NCBI GenBank assembly: GCA_036674765.1
Contig: JARVKI010000006.1
Span: 682,001-746,000 of the forward strand
Reading direction: 5' to 3'
DNA length: 64,000 nucleotides
Source of the DNA: Seiridium cupressi
Taxonomy: Eukaryota > Ascomycota > Sordariomycetes > Amphisphaeriales > Sporocadaceae
This document shows, one piece after another, positions 7,001 through 64,000 of the stretch. The position numbers and the translations under genes are program-made. Below the pieces are notes generated by a model. That model was not told the DNA's origin. It did not search any database and worked only from the letters and a program-made list of their open reading frames with translations. Positions within the stretch are counted from its first letter, which is position 1; each line of letters starts with the position of its first letter.

Positions 7001-7622
7001 CATGACCTTGTAGATCACGACCGCCGATATCCCATACGACTGAATAATAAGCCCCCGTCGCAGATGTGCCAGCCAGCATGACTTTCAGGAAAGCTCCTGA
7101 TTTGCGTTGTGCTCGAAGGCTGCGGACTTGGTTCCAGCAACATCAGCAGGTTTGTCGGAGCATTGTGCAGTCGAGCGAGTGAGTTTATGCACTTGGGCAG
7201 CTGACATGCACGACGGCGGAGAGCAGTTTTTGAAACGCAAATGCAATGCAAAGGAAGAAAGCAGGCAGAGGGATCGGCGCACGGATTGCAGGGCAGCCCG
7301 AGCCAATAGTAGCTCGCTGGCAAGCGGGGCACGGTGGCAGAACCTGGGGCGCTAGTGGGCGGCAAGCTGGGGCTTAATGCTCAATCAGAAGTTGCTGGCC
7401 CGAAATCCCGCTCTCTTCATAATTTCCTCTTCCTTTACAAGCAAAACCCATCACGCTCCGCCCTGCCAAAGCCCCGACAACGCGATTGTCGGTACTCGCC
7501 AGTCCACTAGCCCATCCCAATTGCATCGTCGACCCATCGACAATTCATTCATCGTGGCTGACGAATCGGATATAGCGCATGCCGCTATCAACTCACTGCG
7601 AGTGATTGATCCCGACCTGACC
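4078..7622. other. Gene-free region with AT-rich core and an A-tract
   Basis: No convincing coding sequence. A pure A run of about 18 lies at 4511-4530. From about 5340 to 7000 the composition becomes strongly AT-rich, with many TA-rich words and stops in all frames, unlike the flanking genes. That is the usual look of repeat remnants mutated by RIP in ascomycetes, but I could not recognise a transposon protein, LTR or terminal repeat. The last ~250 bases are open in the frame of the next gene but read like translated leader. Confidence 0.5.
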
Positions 7623-8726
7623 ATGTCGTCCGTCGACGTGACCACGGCCGATCTCACCGCCGAGGACATCAGCCCCGACGACACCACCGCCTCCACACCC
7701 AAGGAGCGCCATTCCCTCACCCTGGACCAGCGGCGCGCCCTTCGTCGCTGGGCTCATGCGCAAACCACGCGCCCGAGCCACAAGGCCTGCATTGAGTGGT
7801 TCTTCAGCCAGTACGGCCAGAACATCTCGCAGTCCACCATCTCGCATTCGCTGTCGCCCAAGTATGCCCGGCTTGACAACGACAACCAGTTCAGCGGCTC
7901 GCGCCTCCGCTTCGGCAATTGGCCTGATGTCGAGAAGCTAGTGCTGCTGTGGCATCAACAGGTTGTTGCATCTGGTCGCAACCCTTCTAATGAGGAGCTC
8001 GCCGACAAGGCAAAGTCCATCTTCACCCAGCTGCCCCGCTACAAAGGCGAGGCTCCTCCCGAGTTCTCTCCGGGCTGGATTCACAGGTTCAAGAAGCGCT
8101 ACGGCCTGCTGATCAGACGTCAGCGCCGCCATGGGAATGCTCCCAACCCTGCCGATGACATCCCTTACCTTGTTGATGCCGTGCCTCGCTTCATGACCAT
8201 CAGCCAGGAGACTAGCCCGGCCGCTATCCGGGATGCCGTACTGCGTGTTGTAGGTGTTGAGGCTACTCTGGGCATCTGTGCTAGAGTACGCGATGAGATC
8301 ATTCGCCGCATCGAAAACCCTGGACAGCCCCATCCGCCTCTGGCCGGCCAGCCCAGCGAACCCGACGCCTATGTTGACGATGATCCAGAGATTGTCCTGC
8401 AGAATGCACTGCGCGCCCTGCAGCAAGAGGAAGCCGATGCCGAGGCAGAGGCTGCCGCTGTCAGAGATGAGCGCGAGCGACAGGATCAAGGACTACCTCC
8501 TCTCCCAGGCCTTCAAACCCCTCAGCAGGCACCCGCTCAGCCCGCGCGATCAAATGCCAGGTTCACCCCTGCCACGATCGAAGAATTGACCTTGACACCC
8601 ATATCTAGTGGAGGGCCCATTGCTCAGAATGACCGTCCACTGCGATGCCCGTTCTGCGTGAACCAGCGTATGCTAAGGACTATCAAGGAAGCTGTAGAGC
8701 ACATGAGCACCCATGTGGTTGTTTAA
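7623..8726 (+). CDS. CENP-B/ABP1-like DNA-binding protein (transposase-derived helix-turn-helix protein)
   Basis: Single exon, 367 aa from the ATG at 7623. The frame is open from 7377, but the extra 82 residues are low-complexity and unlike the family, so 7623 is preferred. Residues ~20-75 form the N-terminal helix-turn-helix seen in fission-yeast Abp1/Cbh (LTLDQRRALRRWA, QSTISHSLSPKY). Residues ~95-165 form a Tc5/CENP-B-type DNA-binding domain (VLLWHQQV, FSPGWIHRFKKRYGL). No DDE nuclease domain follows. Instead there is a coiled, Ala/Glu/Gln-rich segment and a C-terminal zinc-finger-like CPFCVNQRMLRTIKEAVEHMSTH (C-x2-C...H-x3-H). Family knowledge: such proteins bind centromeric or repeat DNA or act as domesticated transposases. 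Function in this fungus is not established. Confidence 0.82.
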   Translation: MSSVDVTTADLTAEDISPDDTTASTPKERHSLTLDQRRALRRWAHAQTTRPSHKACIEWFFSQYGQNISQSTISHSLSPKYARLDNDNQFSGSRLRFGNWPDVEKLVLLWHQQVVASGRNPSNEELADKAKSIFTQLPRYKGEAPPEFSPGWIHRFKKRYGLLIRRQRRHGNAPNPADDIPYLVDAVPRFMTISQETSPAAIRDAVLRVVGVEATLGICARVRDEIIRRIENPGQPHPPLAGQPSEPDAYVDDDPEIVLQNALRALQQEEADAEAEAAAVRDERERQDQGLPPLPGLQTPQQAPAQPARSNARFTPATIEELTLTPISSGGPIAQNDRPLRCPFCVNQRMLRTIKEAVEHMSTHVVV

Positions 8727-37248: not shown

Positions 37249-38688
37249 TTATAACTCGCCAATCGTGGACTTGCCATGCTTGTTCTCCAACTTGGCAAAG
37301 TCAGTGAACCCGAGCTCATACACAAGGCCAAGAGTCATGCGTGCGTGTTGCAGCATGTGGTCGAAGGATAGGTACTCGATCAAATCGTCGGTGCCGTGGA
37401 TACGGTTGTCCGAATCTCCAAATTCAGACTCGATGACAAACGCTGATGGATAACCTGCCTTGGAAGCAGATGCATGGTCCGAGCAAGCGTAGCCGCATTT
37501 GGTCTCGACCCAGGGAATTTCACAGTATGCCTCGATGACTTTCTTGATAAAGACAGTCAAGCCAGGGTCGACATAGTCGGTTATGACACCGACACTCTCC
37601 GGCTTGCCAGCATCAATAGTGCGTTGGATACTACAACATCTGGAGTCAGTCTTTGCTTCTTCTAACATGCTTGATGGGTTGTCGGGAGTAGGAAACCATG
37701 TTTGAAGAGCAGAAACGCTAAGTCAGGAACCGGTGAACTCTCAAAACAGGCTATACGGGGCATGAAGTAACTTCGGAAGTTGCTTACAAACCGGTCATGT
37801 CTTGTTGCAACATAGCCTTGACCACGCGCCCCCTCTTCTCGTAGTCAGCGAAGATAGCCTGGCTACCCAACAGACCACCTTCTTCGGCCGAATACCAGTG
37901 GAATTCGATAGTGTTGGGTGCCTTGCCCTCGATGACATCTTGGGATTGCAGGAGTACCCGGAAAGCCTCTAGGATAGTGACTGTTCCACTACCATCATCA
38001 TCGGCACCGGGTGCAGGCAGGATGGAAGGCAGCCAGAGATTGATGGAGTCCTGGTGTGCACCAATAACCACAGTGGAGTTTGACTTTCCAGGTATGGTGG
38101 CGATGATAGAGTTTTGGCCCCATGGATGCTTGAAATGTTTGGCGTTGACACCATACTCATCGGCGCCGGCATCTTCGATGGTGTCCTGCACTTGCTTGAG
38201 CAACCACTCGGATGATTGCCGTCCGTAATCGGACTTGTAGTAACGGGTGCGGAAGCTAGTAAAGGTCTCGAGGTGATCCTTCATGTGCGACTTGCTCAGA
38301 TTCTTCAGAAGAGGGTTGATTTCGGATTCGAGTTGAACCTTGGAAGGGAAGACAGGCTTCGCGTTGGTCTTGATGTGATAGGCTCCGAGGTCGCCATGTT
38401 CGGTAATGTCCATGAACTGCTGGCCATTCTGTAGGCACTAGGTATCAGAGAAGGCGATCGCATGAGGCGGCATTGGTAGTATCTTACACGGCGAAGCTCC
38501 CACTTCTCCTCCTCACTGACCCATCTTGTCTCTCCGGGAGCCAGCTCAACCAGGAACTTCTCTGCGGGCTCGACGGGGTCCTCGAGAAAGCCGTTGGGAT
38601 AAGGAATGACTGGGTCGGTCTCGTGGGCCTCGATAAAACGGGCGCTCGCCGCTGCTGGCAGCAGAAGGGTCAATAATGAGGCCTTCAT
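37249..38688 (-). CDS. LAP1: Secreted leucine aminopeptidase, M28 family (LAP1 type)
   Basis: Releases N-terminal residues from peptides outside the cell. Exons 38688-38488, 38428-37788 and 37630-37249, about 407 aa; introns 59 and 157 nt. Both joins are in phase and restore [14 protein letters not shown] and [20 protein letters not shown]. Signal peptide [16 protein letters not shown], then a propeptide with [16 protein letters not shown], typical of LAP1. Two-zinc site visible: H192 (AHQDSIN, with D194), D211 (ADDDGSG), E249 and E250 (YSAEEGG), the Asp/Cys region [14 protein letters not shown] (disulfide plus Asp ligand), and the last His in RIHGTDD. Length and motifs match the fungal M28E enzymes. 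It is divergent from the Kex2-repeat gene, with 953 bp between their ATGs. Confidence 0.94.
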
Positions 38689-39641: not shown

Positions 39642-40805
39642 ATGCAGTTCAGAACAGTCTTCTCCATCTTTCTGGCTACTCACGCCGCCGCCAGCTCTAT
39701 ACCATCACAAACTCGAGCTGATTGCGCAGGCTCTCTAGGCTGCATCGCCGGCACGCAATATTGCTTACACATCGGTCAACTAACGAATCTACACACTCCC
39801 TGCACCAACACTTCGGGCCACTGGAGTACATGGAGTCGTGAAGTACACGCTCGCGCTGATTGTGCTGGCTCTGTTGGTTGCATCGCTGGCACCCAATACT
39901 GCTCTTACAACGGCCAGCTGACCAACCTACACACGCCGTGCACAGAAGACTATGGCTCCTGGAATGACGACAAGAAGCGCGATGTCCCGGCTCAGGAGAA
40001 GCGTGCTGACTGCGCTGGCTCGATCGGCTGCATCGCTGGCACCCAGTACTGCTCCTACAACGGGCAACTCACCAATCTTCACACAGCATGCACAGACAAC
40101 TGGGGCAGCTGGGGCGATGACAAGAAACGTGCCAACGCCGAAGAAGAGAAGCGCGCCGACTGTGCCGGCTCTATTGGTTGTATTGCAGGCTCCCAATACT
40201 GCTCCTACAATGGCCAGCTAACGAATCTCAACACGCCATGCACCGAGGATTGGAGCACTTGGGGATCGGACCGGAAGCGTGCTGACTGCGCCGGCTCCGT
40301 GGGGTGCATCGCCGGAACAGAATACTGCTCTTACAACGGCCAACTCACCAACCTACACACTGCGTGTCCAGATGAAGAGTGGGATTGGAAAGCACTTTCT
40401 CGGCGGACGGACTGCTCCGGCACCGTCGGGTGTGTGGCGGGCGAGCAATATTGCTCTTATAGTGATGGAAATGGATGGCACTGGAACCCCATGGGCACGC
40501 CGTGCCAGTCGTCCGATGTCCCCATCTTCGTGGCTGATGACCATGATTCCTTTACCATCAGCCACACATGGTCCACCGCAACGCCAACGACCAGTGTGAC
40601 CGTAATCACGACTTCAGCGAGTGGGTCAGGTCTATCGACGATCACGAGCTCAAGTGTGGTGACACCAACTGCGGCGGCTCTCAGCTCTGGAACCACCACC
40701 GGATCGGCTACTAGCACGAGCGTGAGCAAGGCAGGCGCGCCAGTGGCTACCGCGGGATTCGGCCTCCTGGCTGGTGCAGCAATTGCTGGGGTCGCTTTTC
40801 TCTGA
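39642..40805 (+). CDS. Predicted Kex2-processed repeat precursor with six four-cysteine repeats and a GPI-type tail
   Basis: Single exon, 387 aa. Signal peptide (residues 1-~19). Six tandem repeats start at residues 26, 72, 122, 172, 214 and 256 with the consensus ADCAGSxGCIAGTQYCSYNG...C; Cys spacing is C-x5-C-x6-C-x12-C in repeats 1-5 and C-x5-C-x6-C-x16-C in repeat 6 (24 Cys in all). Repeats are separated by dibasic sites: KR at 112-113, 120-121, 162-163, 170-171 and 212-213, and RR at 254-255; repeats 1 and 2 are preceded by single Arg (25, 71). Two spacers between paired KR sites read DVPAQE and ANAEEE, like the acidic X-Ala/X-Pro spacers of fungal pheromone precursors. After repeat 6 comes a Thr/Ser stalk and a hydrophobic C-terminus (GAPVATAGFGLLAGAAIAGVAFL less its ends), a likely GPI signal. 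Seen: repeats and sites. Inferred: Kex2 cleavage to disulfide-rich peptides of about 40 aa. Function unknown. Confidence 0.88.
   Translation: MQFRTVFSIFLATHAAASSIPSQTRADCAGSLGCIAGTQYCLHIGQLTNLHTPCTNTSGHWSTWSREVHARADCAGSVGCIAGTQYCSYNGQLTNLHTPCTEDYGSWNDDKKRDVPAQEKRADCAGSIGCIAGTQYCSYNGQLTNLHTACTDNWGSWGDDKKRANAEEEKRADCAGSIGCIAGSQYCSYNGQLTNLNTPCTEDWSTWGSDRKRADCAGSVGCIAGTEYCSYNGQLTNLHTACPDEEWDWKALSRRTDCSGTVGCVAGEQYCSYSDGNGWHWNPMGTPCQSSDVPIFVADDHDSFTISHTWSTATPTTSVTVITTSASGSGLSTITSSSVVTPTAAALSSGTTTGSATSTSVSKAGAPVATAGFGLLAGAAIAGVAFL
39717..40503 (+). repeat. In-gene tandem repeats (units of 126-150 bp)
   Basis: Six direct repeats begin at 39717, 39855, 40005, 40155, 40281 and 40407, so periods are 138, 150, 150, 126 and 126 bp, all multiples of three. 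The central four units are very similar in both DNA and protein; the first and last are diverged. This gradient fits duplication by unequal exchange with homogenisation in the middle. Confidence 0.85.
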
Positions 40806-56635: not shown

Positions 56636-58422
56636 CTACATAAACGCGTCTTGAGCTTCAAGAATATCCTTGGGAGCAAAGGTCCGCTCGAGGCTCTTCT
56701 GCCAGAAGTCATAGCCTGAGCCGGGTTGGAATTCGCCAAGCTTTGGGATGACATATTCGTTGAGAATTATCTCCTTGCCGTTGCCCTTCTTCTTCTTCAC
56801 CCAGTGAGCCCTGTTGCCTGGCGAGGCTTCTACGTATGTCCAGTCATGTGCGAAAGGTGCCGGCGTATAGTCCTTGCGGGTATCCTTGCGATGACGAACA
56901 CTGGGATGAACCTCCTCGTTGAACCAGTTGTAGTCGATGGCCTTCTTCTGGCCTCCGACAATCTCGGTGGCGGGTGTTTCGCCGGGGGTGCGTTTATAAG
57001 ACGCCGCTCGCGTAGAGATCAACGATGGGACCCACCAAAAGTCTGTCCACCCATTAGTATCATCAAGAGTACCATCGCTCCAGGTGATCTTGTTCCAGGC
57101 CGGCTTCAGGTTTCGGATGTTTTTATTATTGGTGTCGAGATTGAGCTCCCCTATCCTGAATAGGATGTATTTCTGCAAAGCTGTGCCGCTTAGCTGCAAT
57201 AGACCGAATATCTGGTCGCACATCCAGGCAAAGGCGATCTCGTCGACACTATTGGTATCAATCTCGCCCTTGCTGTGACCTCCAACGTCGGAATGGTAGC
57301 CAGGAAACCAGCACTGCTTGAGATTCACCTTTGGCGTTCCGTCTTCCTTCATACATGATGAGTCTAGATACCAAAGTGTGGGCGGAAAATTTCCACGAGT
57401 TTCGTCAATTGCCATCGCATGGAAGGCGTTTTCGATTTCTTCTCGAGTCAGCCAGTATTCCGAGTAAATATGATGATTCCAAAAGACTCACTAGGGTTCA
57501 GCTTGGTGCTGTGAAAGTATTGATCTGCTCCAGCTTGACCCCACCAATTCGTCGCACCCAAACTGGCGACAGTGTCCCACACGCCAACTACCTTGATCTT
57601 CGCGTGCACATGGACGGACTTCCTCAGGTAATTGATGCGCGAGCCAAGGTCTCTCTTGGCGTCACCTTCGCGTGGTGGGATCGTCCCAAGTTCACCAGCA
57701 ATCAGAGGCTCATTGGCCCACTTGGTCTCGTCAAACTTCTGATCTCCTCTGTTACTGTATGCCTGGTAGATCTCATAGAAATGATCCAGCATGAGTGGTG
57801 TGAGGAGCCCCAGTTGGCAGATGAAGCCTGCGAGAGATCGAGCTGTATATGCACCTCGAGAAAACCCGAAGATGAAGATTTCATCGCCGGGTCCCCAATT
57901 ATTGGCGAGAAAGTTGTAGGCTTCACATACTTTTTCTGCCAAACTTTCACCAACAGCACCTGGAGTGCATGAGTACGAGTGTATAAGACAAAAGGGTCTA
58001 GAGCATACCTTGGCGGGTCTTGTCAATGAAGGAAAGAGACCCGGTTCCGACGCCCGACTGGTAGTAAACAATCTGGGGCAGCTTTTCACCTTCACTATAA
58101 GACTCAGGGTCAGCCGTCCCTTCTTTGCAGATGCTTGGTAAGTTGTGTGGAGTTGACGATCATGCTTTAGGATCAAAAGCACATTAATTGGGCAGTGTGC
58201 ATGTGCTTGGGTGACACTACAAGGTGGACAAAGCGACACTGAAAGTGCTTACGGTGTGATGCCAACCCTGGAGATGGCTCGACTCAATCGCGCGACATTG
58301 CTTGAGTAGTCCTGAGTTCCTTTGTCCACGCCGCTGAATGTCCCATCGCAGCAGACGATGAGCCGCTTCTTGATGGAACCGTTGAGGTATGTCGACGTGC
58401 AAGCCAAGCAGTTGGTTTCCAT
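56636..58422 (-). CDS. DUF2235 alpha/beta hydrolase (Tle1-like fold)
   Basis: Four exons, 58422-58253, 58094-58009, 57959-57492 and 57441-56636, about 509 aa. Each join is in phase and restores motif: ITP|EGEKLPQIVYYQSGVGTG, TRQG|AVGESLAEKV, LNP-KEIENAFHAMAID. Motifs: N-terminal RLIVCCDGTFSG (the DGT signature of DUF2235), the nucleophile elbow FGFSRGAYTARSLAG (catalytic Ser), KVVGVWDTVASLG (acidic residue region) and GYHSDVGG (catalytic His region). Family knowledge: bacterial Tle1 effectors are phospholipases; fungal members are very common and mostly unstudied. No signal peptide, so likely intracellular. A Lys-rich patch (HWVKKKKGNGKE) lies near the C-terminus. Enzyme class lipase/esterase is inference. 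Confidence 0.9.
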
Positions 58423-62130: not shown

Positions 62131-64000
62131 ATGCGTATAATCATAGCTCTCGCATTCTGCGCGGTATCCTTTGGAGCTAGGGTGCCGCGATTTGGCCCTC
62201 ATCGCAAGCTTCACCGCCATGCTGAACATCACGAGAATCGTGGTGTAAACGCAGAAGATGGCTACCAATGTTACGCGCGCACTCGTACATACCTCACGAC
62301 CTACATGACCACAGTTGCAACCACCACGGGAAACCCGGAAAGCATTTCCCAGGCCGGCACGTACAGTAGCATGCCAACTTCTGGATCTGGTAATGACGGC
62401 AACGGAGGCAACGGCGGCAACGGCGGCAACGGCGGCAACGGTGGCAACGGTGGCAACGGTGGCAACGGTGGCAACGGTGGTAACGGAGGCAACGGGTACG
62501 TTGTTCGGAACCTATCCCCAACCCCTTTCGGAATGTCCAAGGAGCTCAAAGTCCCCAATTGGACCTGTTATAGCACTCACTCCTCAGATATGACTCTTCC
62601 AACTCATATCCGTGTTTAAAGGAGTAATTACTGACTCATTTTCGTACGCAGTGGTGACGGCGGTGACGGAGGTGATTCGTCTTCTGGTACAATTACGTCC
62701 CAAGGCACTGACGGCGACGTCACTACTGTCACTGTTACAACGACAACAACCCAAACGGATCCAAATGGCAATACAGAAACTATTACGACGGTCATAACTA
62801 CGACAGTGTCTGCTATGCCGACAACGGCAGACGACCAAACATCTACTAGTGACAGCACCGCTCAGGATGCGGGCGATATTACATCCACGTCTACAGTAGA
62901 ATCTACTTCTACAGTAGAATCCACGTCTACAGTAGACAGTTCAACAGATACCATTTCGCAATCGACTCCAACATCACCAATCACCACCACCATCACCACC
63001 ACTGAAGTCACATTGACCACCGATTTAACCACATCAACTATTGATGCATCAGCGGTTATTCTTAGCGTTCAGCTCGCAATGGCTACTCCAGAGGCAACCG
63101 TAAGCTCGACTGCTGTTGCTCGGAGGGCCCATTGGAGCTGGAAACGTCAGGACGATCAGCCTGGCGAAGGATTTGTAGGCGATGGGAATTCCTCTAATCC
63201 GGACACGTGCGGGAACGCGGCTGTGTTTTCGCCAATGGGCGGGCAGCTTGTCAGAATGGGGCGGCCCATAGCCGTAGATCCTGGCGCTCCCTACATCAGT
63301 CTGGCTAATTATCCTAACGGTTCCATTACCGGAAACTTCTCCTTCGAGAATGGCATACTCGTCTGGAGGAACAGTCAGTTCTTCAGCGGGACAGCCAGGT
63401 TTTGCCAAGTCAACGGAGACGACGTGTATGCCTTGTTCACCGACGCGACCATTGTCAACTGTGTGGCTGTCAACCTGGTTGTATATCTAGGTATGTCCTC
63501 AATTCCATTTTCCGATTTCCGAGCGCTTTTTCTAACAAAGATCTTCAAGCGGACCAATGTCAAAACAACGTTCTCGTCGGCACAGGCCCTATCACAAGCC
63601 CAACTCCGAGCTTTCCTTCATCGGGAAATAATATATCGACCACGCCAACAGCGTCGACCTCGGATACAGCTTCCACTTCACAGACAACTTCCAACGGGAA
63701 CCTGACATCCGCGATAACAAGCGGCACTATATCAATTATAAGTTCCATACTATCGCAAATTTCAAACTCGAGCACGAGTATGGTCACTCTCTCGCCTGTA
63801 ACAGGCAGCGTGACTTTCTCATTCACGAACACATCCCAGACCACGACAAGCCCTTCAACATCTGGCCCCGATCAATCCAGCGCTCAGTCCACGAGCACCC
63901 TCGGATCATCAAACAGTACAAGCTCGACTGTTTCAACCAGTTCGACTGAGCCCACAAGCTCAGATGTGTCCACAAGCTCAGATGTGTCCACAAGCTCAGA
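62131..64000 (+). CDS. DUF7908-domain, Gly/Asn- and Ser/Thr-rich secreted protein (3' end outside window)
   Basis: Exons 62131-62495, 62652-63490 and 63550 to beyond the window; introns 156 and 59 nt, both in phase (GNG|GDGGDGGDSS; VVYL-ADQCQNN). Signal peptide MRIIIALAFCAVSFGA. Then a (GGN)n run of about eleven units, a Thr/Ser-rich region with TSTVES repeats, a basic segment ARRAHWSWKRQ, the DUF7908 domain (EGFVGDGNSSNPDTCGNAAV through TARFCQVNGDDVYALF to LADQCQNN, four Cys), and a second Ser/Thr-rich region that continues off the end with STSSDV repeats. DUF7908 proteins are secreted or wall-linked fungal proteins without known activity. The KR and RR around the basic segment could be Kex2 sites. 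A GPI signal may follow beyond the window. Confidence 0.85.
62392..62495 (+). repeat. 9-bp minisatellite encoding Gly-Gly-Asn
   Basis: About eleven tandem copies of GGCAACGGN with third-position changes, ending at the donor GTACGT of intron 1. Likely variable in length between strains. Confidence 0.85.
62888..62944 (+). repeat. 18-bp tandem repeat (TSTVES)
   Basis: Three near-identical units TCTACAGTAGAATC(T/C)AC(T/G) encode TSTVES/TSTVDS in the Ser/Thr-rich part of the DUF7908 gene. Confidence 0.75.
63953..64000 (+). repeat. 18-bp tandem repeat at window edge (STSSDV)
   Basis: Units of CACAAGCTCAGATGTGTC repeat at least twice and continue past the window end, in frame with the Ser/Thr-rich tail of the DUF7908 protein. 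Confidence 0.75.

Follow-up and report, generated by a model that had tools for sequence, protein, structure and literature searches.

A candidate Kex2-processed precursor of four-cysteine units with a divergent last unit on a GPI-type tail in Seiridium cupressi

Introduction

The closest described systems are the fungal Kex2-processed repeat proteins (KEPs; Le Marquer 2019, PMC6339444; Umemura 2020, PMC7329392), which share with the precursor described here a signal-like N-terminus and at least three similar repeats at KR/RR-type sites. Their repeat number differs between species, as it does between our precursor and its relatives. In one screen the repeats had to cover 15% or more of the protein, and membrane proteins were dropped by TMHMM (PMC6339444). 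The other asked for a minimum of three repeats in tandem, each 8-100 aa long and set between KR, KK, RK, or RR sites (PMC7329392), and both counted dibasic sites only (PMC6339444, PMC7329392). Catalogued KEP repeats span 3 to 352 aa (PMC6339444), and the peptides of Rep1 measure 35-53 aa (PMC4617103). The statement of the first-pass annotation that known Kex2-processed cores are short was therefore not borne out.

Candidalysin is the product of Ece1 of Candida albicans. Ece1, which is cut by Kex2 into several peptides and has a longer fragment at one terminus, resembles our precursor in this predicted layout and differs from it in having seven less conserved repeats (PMC2515848), and candidalysin is described as linear (PMC9769878). 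Rep1 (repellent) and Hum3 of Ustilago maydis, which we compared by description only, carry repeats of 34-55 aa and 31-36 aa, respectively, between Kex2 sites and, like our precursor, a different C-terminal portion, but their repeats are described as amphipathic and a hydrophobin domain lies behind the repeats in Hum3 (PMC4617103).

Compared with the KEPs, our precursor differs in its apparently folded four-cysteine units and in one deviant unit type carried on a GPI-type tail, and its family differs in that some junctions are monobasic with an aliphatic P4 residue. The four-cysteine motif was absent from the conserved motifs in one section of PMC6339444. Text searches of 5.39 million open-access papers with three unit strings and with three locus names of relatives gave no hit, and topic searches gave, among the matches listed, no paper on the repeat by its title or the start of its abstract.

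Results

Architecture of the precursor

The window, i.e., the whole 64,000-nucleotide stretch analyzed here, sits on contig C6 of a 45.4 Mb assembly with 228 contigs. The ORF that had been read as six four-cysteine repeats (39642-40805, forward strand, 387 aa) is real, and 24/24 of its cysteines sit in six units. It is apparently a single exon, since its alignment with four full-length relatives begins at the first Met and runs through to the C-terminus. Its parts are listed in Table 1.

A signal-like N-terminus and a GPI-type end had both been reported for this protein, and both were recovered. Hydropathy alone placed a hydrophobic window at residues 6-16. Behind unit 6, a stalk of 77 residues with 48% Ser/Thr was followed by a hydrophobic C-terminus, and by alignment and hydropathy this putative GPI-type stalk and tail is common to the precursor and the four full-length relatives. 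The repeat cores make up 178 of the 387 residues, above the 15% level of the KEP catalogue, and at least three repeats between dibasic sites were counted, by eye rather than with the published pipeline.

Table 1. Features of the precursor, with positions in the window.
Feature	Position	Strand	Basis or remark
Whole precursor ORF, 387 aa	39642-40805	+	End-to-end alignment of relatives
Likely signal peptide, residues 1-17	39642-39692	+	Sequence, hydropathy; cut perhaps between AAA and SS
N-terminal pro-segment SSIPSQTR, monobasic end	39693-39716	+	SSxPxxxR common to four full-length relatives
Unit 1 core, residues 26-54	39717-39803	+	
Junction 1-2, R-EVHAR, without dibasic site	39837-39854	+	VHAR: P4 aliphatic, P2 Ala not favored
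Unit 2 core, residues 72-100	39855-39941	+	
Junction 2-3, KKR-DVPAQE-KR	39972-40004	+	
Unit 3 core, residues 122-150	40005-40091	+	Modeled peptide: 40005-40121
Junction 3-4, KKR-ANAEEE-KR	40122-40154	+	
Unit 4 core, residues 172-200	40155-40241	+	
Junction 4-5, RKR, one site without spacer	40272-40280	+	
Unit 5 core, residues 214-242	40281-40367	+	
Junction 5-6, RR	40401-40406	+	
Unit 6 core, residues 256-288, divergent, x16 loop with Trp and His	40407-40505	+	
Ser/Thr-rich stalk, residues 289-365, 77 aa	40506-40736	+	
Hydrophobic GPI-attachment-type tail, residues 366-387	40737-40802	+	Similar tail in four relatives; anchor putative

Unit types and constraint

The spacing of the four cysteines had been called invariant, which is not the case. 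Units 1-5 follow ADC-x5-C-x6-C-x12-C, whereas unit 6 starts with TDC and has C-x5-C-x6-C-x16-C with a different loop, GNGWHWNPMGTPC, and a x13 spacing also occurs among the units of relatives. Judged by these patterns, the precursor has two types of unit, five of type A and one of type B (unit 6).

At the DNA level, a 150-nt reference copy recurred three more times (74, 69, and 63% identity) and a 111-nt reference four more times (68-75%). Silent divergence among units 1-5 was high, with dS of 1.03-1.44 in 7 pairs and saturation in 3 of the 10 pairs, while dN was 0.03-0.11; the resulting dN/dS of 0.025-0.079 in the 7 measurable pairs comes from a counting method that is rough at 29 codons. High dS together with low dN indicates that the copies are old and that each was apparently held separately to nearly the same peptide, and on these substitution counts recent duplication is no explanation for the likeness of units 1-5. 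The net charge of the six cores was −1 to −3, unlike typical antimicrobial peptides, which are cationic.

Basic residues at the unit borders

Lys and Arg avoid the cores. The 268-residue repeat region holds 19 of them, and 0/19 lie in the cores, which make up 178 of its residues (hypergeometric P = 2.5e-10). The corresponding counts for the relatives P0002-P0006 (our precursor being P0001) were 1/12, 0/13, 0/12, 1/13, and 2/9, respectively; P0007-P0009 had too few units for this count. Arg stands directly before 6/6 units of the precursor, a result matched by 1 of 200,000 shuffles within linkers, and directly before 26/27 units in eight proteins, with P0008 as the exception and P0009, whose unit is split, giving no countable unit.

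Dibasic sites had been placed between all repeats. They were present at 4/5 inter-unit junctions, before units 3, 4, 5, and 6, so that units 3, 4, and 5 are each enclosed by two of them, unit 6 has one in front, and unit 2 has one behind. Junction 1-2 (WSREVHAR before ADC) is monobasic, and the site before unit 1 (SQTR before ADC) likewise has no dibasic pair. In the four full-length relatives, all three junctions had the form KR-spacer-[K]R. In relatives from other genera the basic junctions are kept while the linkers differ in sequence and length, which agrees with the initial proposal of a Kex2-processed precursor.

At the monobasic inter-unit sites P4 was Val, Ile, or Leu in 10/10 cases, compared with 1/10 at the dibasic sites, in seven proteins (P0008 and P0009 left out), for a pattern that was sought after the sequences had been seen and with counts that are not independent, as the relatives are few and P0002/P0005 and P0003/P0004 are close pairs. 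Seven distinct strings were involved, namely VHAR, VETR, VKTR, VAVR, VDAR, IAAR, and LNSR. The background of these three residues was 17/375 among inter-unit linker residues of five full-length proteins (P0001-P0005), and the N-terminal monobasic sites had them at P4 in 0/6. The extended Kex2 motif has an aliphatic P4 and favored P2 residues including Thr, and Asp at P3 is unfavorable (PMC8528282). A favored P2 residue (Thr) was present at only 2/10 monobasic inter-unit sites, the others having Ala, Val, or Ser, and VDAR, which accounts for 2/10 of these sites in two proteins, has the unfavorable Asp at P3. Taken by its P4 residues, the pattern suggests that the monobasic junctions are alternative kexin sites.

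The residues following the precursor's basic sites were KKR-DV, KR-AD, KKR-AN, KR-AD, RKR-AD, and RR-TD. The spacers DVPAQE and ANAEEE had been likened to those trimmed by Ste13-type peptidases. Both are indeed enclosed by doubled basic sites, but they start with D-V and A-N, and a KR...KR pair could remove a spacer with no need of Ste13. The Ste13 signature is X-A or X-P directly behind the Kex2 dipeptide (PMC6339444), and it is lacking behind the basic sites of our precursor. This bears on an alpha-type mating pheromone precursor, with which our protein shares the general Kex2-repeat layout. As no match to a pheromone family was found either, and units of ~39 aa stand against the 9-24 aa class of alpha pheromones (PMC6339444), we consider this identity extremely improbable.

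Relatives and predicted fold

Searches of ~5.8 billion proteins gave eight relatives of the precursor; in two of them scoring covered the ~8,000 candidates with the most words in common, and in one there were 45 candidates. Full-length relatives with four units each came from Neopestalotiopsis clavispora, Neopestalotiopsis sp. 37M, Pestalotiopsis sp. 9143b, and one entry without an organism name; the three named ones are hypothetical proteins with 53-54% BLASTP identity over 70% of the query. Pestalotiopsis belongs to the Sporocadaceae, Amphisphaeriales. The Pestalotiopsis and Neopestalotiopsis proteins are like the precursor in unit, junction design, divergent last unit, stalk, and tail, and unlike it in having four units instead of six and Asp/Gly-rich unit tails. 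A units were up to 90% identical to those of relatives. The unit 6 core has its counterpart in the relatives' last unit (70% identity), and the last-unit core is identical between the Pestalotiopsis and Neopestalotiopsis relatives. Among the shorter entries, P0006 showed the starts of three units, P0007 a single last-type unit, and P0008 a single unit.

P0009 (155 aa) has its unit split by an apparent unspliced stretch; behind the unit, an acidic tail and KR lead into a Cys-rich segment of another kind in place of further units. From this protein, the four-cysteine unit may occur in other precursor contexts. No second locus for the precursor was found in the 45.4 Mb source genome, and no relatives of P0001 were found in viral or prokaryotic contig collections. 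The phage family phrog_10322, of unknown function, scored against the whole of P0001 with an E-value of 2.8e-8, but the signal faded with single units and was taken as the probable sum of weak similarities of Cys-rich repeats.

Pfam, NCBIfam, and PDB gave no relative of the precursor or of its unit, and in these libraries the unit carries no family name, in line with the first-pass annotation, which recognized none. To speak of a candidate new family, as was done earlier, is fair for the unit, but the KEPs, to which the precursor would belong, are a known category. Chitin_bind_1, a cysteine-rich domain, gave no match in the precursor or in the seven relatives, out of eight, that were scanned. 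In this the precursor is unlike KEP type S-6 of Neocallimastix and Piromyces, whose Chitin_bind_1 annotation, in a table where profile annotations look loose, suggests that Kex2-bordered repeats can be Cys-rich (PMC7329392). With the KEP repeat sizes, Rep1, Hum3, and this Chitin_bind_1 type, large, possibly Cys-rich units and a different C-terminal portion each have a precedent.

A fold had been asked for by the first reading, and one unit (39 residues, 40005-40121), aligned with the window's five other units, was modeled as a three-stranded beta-meander (strands E6-10, E13-18, and E21-28) with a pLDDT of 80.5 and a pTM of 0.50. It gave no match among solved structures, a result of little weight with a model of 39 residues. 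The model of the whole precursor was unreliable (pLDDT 35.2, pTM 0.20).

The comparison with relatives bears on whether the protein is cut at all. It could stay uncut as a wall protein or adhesin that is held by a GPI anchor, with six small domains on a stalk and basic linkers that are merely flexible. The GPI-type tail and Ser/Thr stalk kept in four relatives, the varying number of units (6 vs. 4 in four relatives), and the missing dibasic site at junction 1-2 are in line with this, and many non-processed fungal repeat proteins are GPI-anchored (PMC5923269). Against it stand the precursor's cores without Lys/Arg, a border Arg that is kept while linker sequence and length change, and the aliphatic P4 of the monobasic inter-unit sites, and we regard an uncleaved protein as unlikely.

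Processing enzymes and neighborhood

In the genome a single P_proprotein match passed the cut-off, with 65.3 bits, and it closes a 432-aa frame; the matched stretch holds one TAA, probably an intron. By eye, this frame reads as a subtilisin, i.e., a kexin. S10 carboxypeptidases were represented by 34 stretches, with no Kex1 singled out among them. A strong DPPIV_N match was also present in the genome, for which the precursor's spacers do not call.

Pfam matches of frames near the precursor included an M28 peptidase, PLD-like, MFS, aldo/keto reductase, alcohol acetyltransferase, and tannase domains. No peptide-modification cluster was seen among 30 window frames scanned, from which small exons may have escaped. 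This concerns the possibility of a dikaritin-type RiPP precursor, whose repeats would be cyclized by UstYa-family enzymes. The repeats do contain Tyr and have Kex2-type sites at their borders. Against this, 0/42 of the UstYa stretches listed for the genome lie on contig C6, no UstYa was found at E<=0.001 in the 30 window frames, and the units are ~39 aa long with four cysteines, whereas three precursors of dikaritins have repeats that typically measure 13, 14, and 8 aa (PMC7329392). Such a product is highly improbable.

An M28-type peptidase in divergent orientation lies ~950 bases upstream of the precursor (37784-38688, reverse strand). Its frame at 37784-38413 matched Peptidase_M28 with 5.4e-22, and a possible signal-bearing first exon falls within 38305-38688. 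That this enzyme trims the peptides is pure speculation.

Other features of the window were noted. About 11 copies of GGCAACGGT occupy 62398-62495 inside a 162-aa frame (62131-62619, forward strand), for which no Pfam match at E<=0.001 was found. The frame at 62815-63705 (forward strand) matched DUF7908 (7.8e-22) and holds an 18-nt tandem array at 62883-62936; a second 18-nt array lies at the window's end (63952-64000). The frame at 7377-8726 (forward strand) carries HTH_ABP1_N and Tc5-transposase DNA-binding domains, and that at 56636-57415 (reverse strand) a T6SS Tle1-like phospholipase catalytic domain (1e-15), here in a fungal genome.

Discussion

We consider it likely that the precursor is a Kex2-processed repeat protein whose units are released while its last portion stays GPI-tethered. 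Going by known pathways, the units would fold in the ER with two disulfides each. Kexin in the late Golgi would then cut after the Arg preceding each unit and at the KR, KKR, or RKR behind it, a Kex1-type carboxypeptidase would trim the basic tails, and the spacers would be discarded. Four or five acidic peptides of ~39 residues would be secreted, with units 1 and 2 possibly left as one piece should their monobasic junction be cut poorly, and unit 6 would be held on the cell surface via the putative GPI anchor.

This processing is supported by the avoidance of the cores by Lys/Arg, the Arg at the unit borders, the aliphatic P4, the spacer-bearing junctions of the full-length relatives, the constraint on the units, the apparent kexin and the S10 carboxypeptidase matches in the genome, and the beta-meander predicted for one unit on its own. 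It is weakened because junction 1-2 and the N-terminal site are monobasic, because P2 at the monobasic inter-unit sites is mostly not a favored residue, and because a GPI tail would be compatible with an uncut protein as well. Predicted Kex2 sites, high-scoring ones included, sometimes stay uncut (PMC2515848). The pairing of a GPI-type tail with Kex2-type junctions may not be unique to this family, as Kex2 substrates with potential GPI sites are marked in the legend of Fig. 9 of the same paper (PMC2515848).

If the units are processed, their target may be considered. Host-directed peptides, apoplastic effector- or toxin-like, or antimicrobial ones, overlap with the processing described above and are a somewhat doubtful possibility. 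Small, secreted-type four-cysteine peptides with relatives in Pestalotiopsis and Neopestalotiopsis would suit such a role, members of these genera are reported from diseased and healthy plants, and virulence factors occur among KEP products (PMC6339444). The low dN/dS and the identity of up to 90% of A units to those of the relatives speak, however, for constraint instead of an arms race, the acidic cores are unlike cationic antimicrobials, and no second genomic copy was found. Constraint and acidic charge lead us to a mild preference for a conserved surface or self-directed role, in which the peptides would act extracellularly on a conserved, slow-changing partner (the wall or surface of the fungus itself, or else a signal passed between fungi) and not as fast-evolving host effectors; at present this is conceivable but doubtful.

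Tentatively, and with reservations, we propose that one polypeptide may give both diffusible A-type units and a surface-tethered, separately conserved B-type unit of one mini-protein. No description of a KEP that is both released and tethered was found in the portions of the KEP literature examined. Both published KEP screens might miss such proteins, as the TMHMM filter of one may catch a GPI tail and both count only dibasic sites, whereas the present family seems to use monobasic ones with an aliphatic P4 as well. The family offers a search rule for them: Cys units that are free of K/R inside, with Arg at the border and a GPI tail. If the units are released, a disulfide-type mini-protein family would be present among 'hypothetical proteins', with several copies per gene and one on the surface, and the tethered unit, if the proposal is true, could be an anchored partner, a seed, or a receptor-like counterpart of the released ones.
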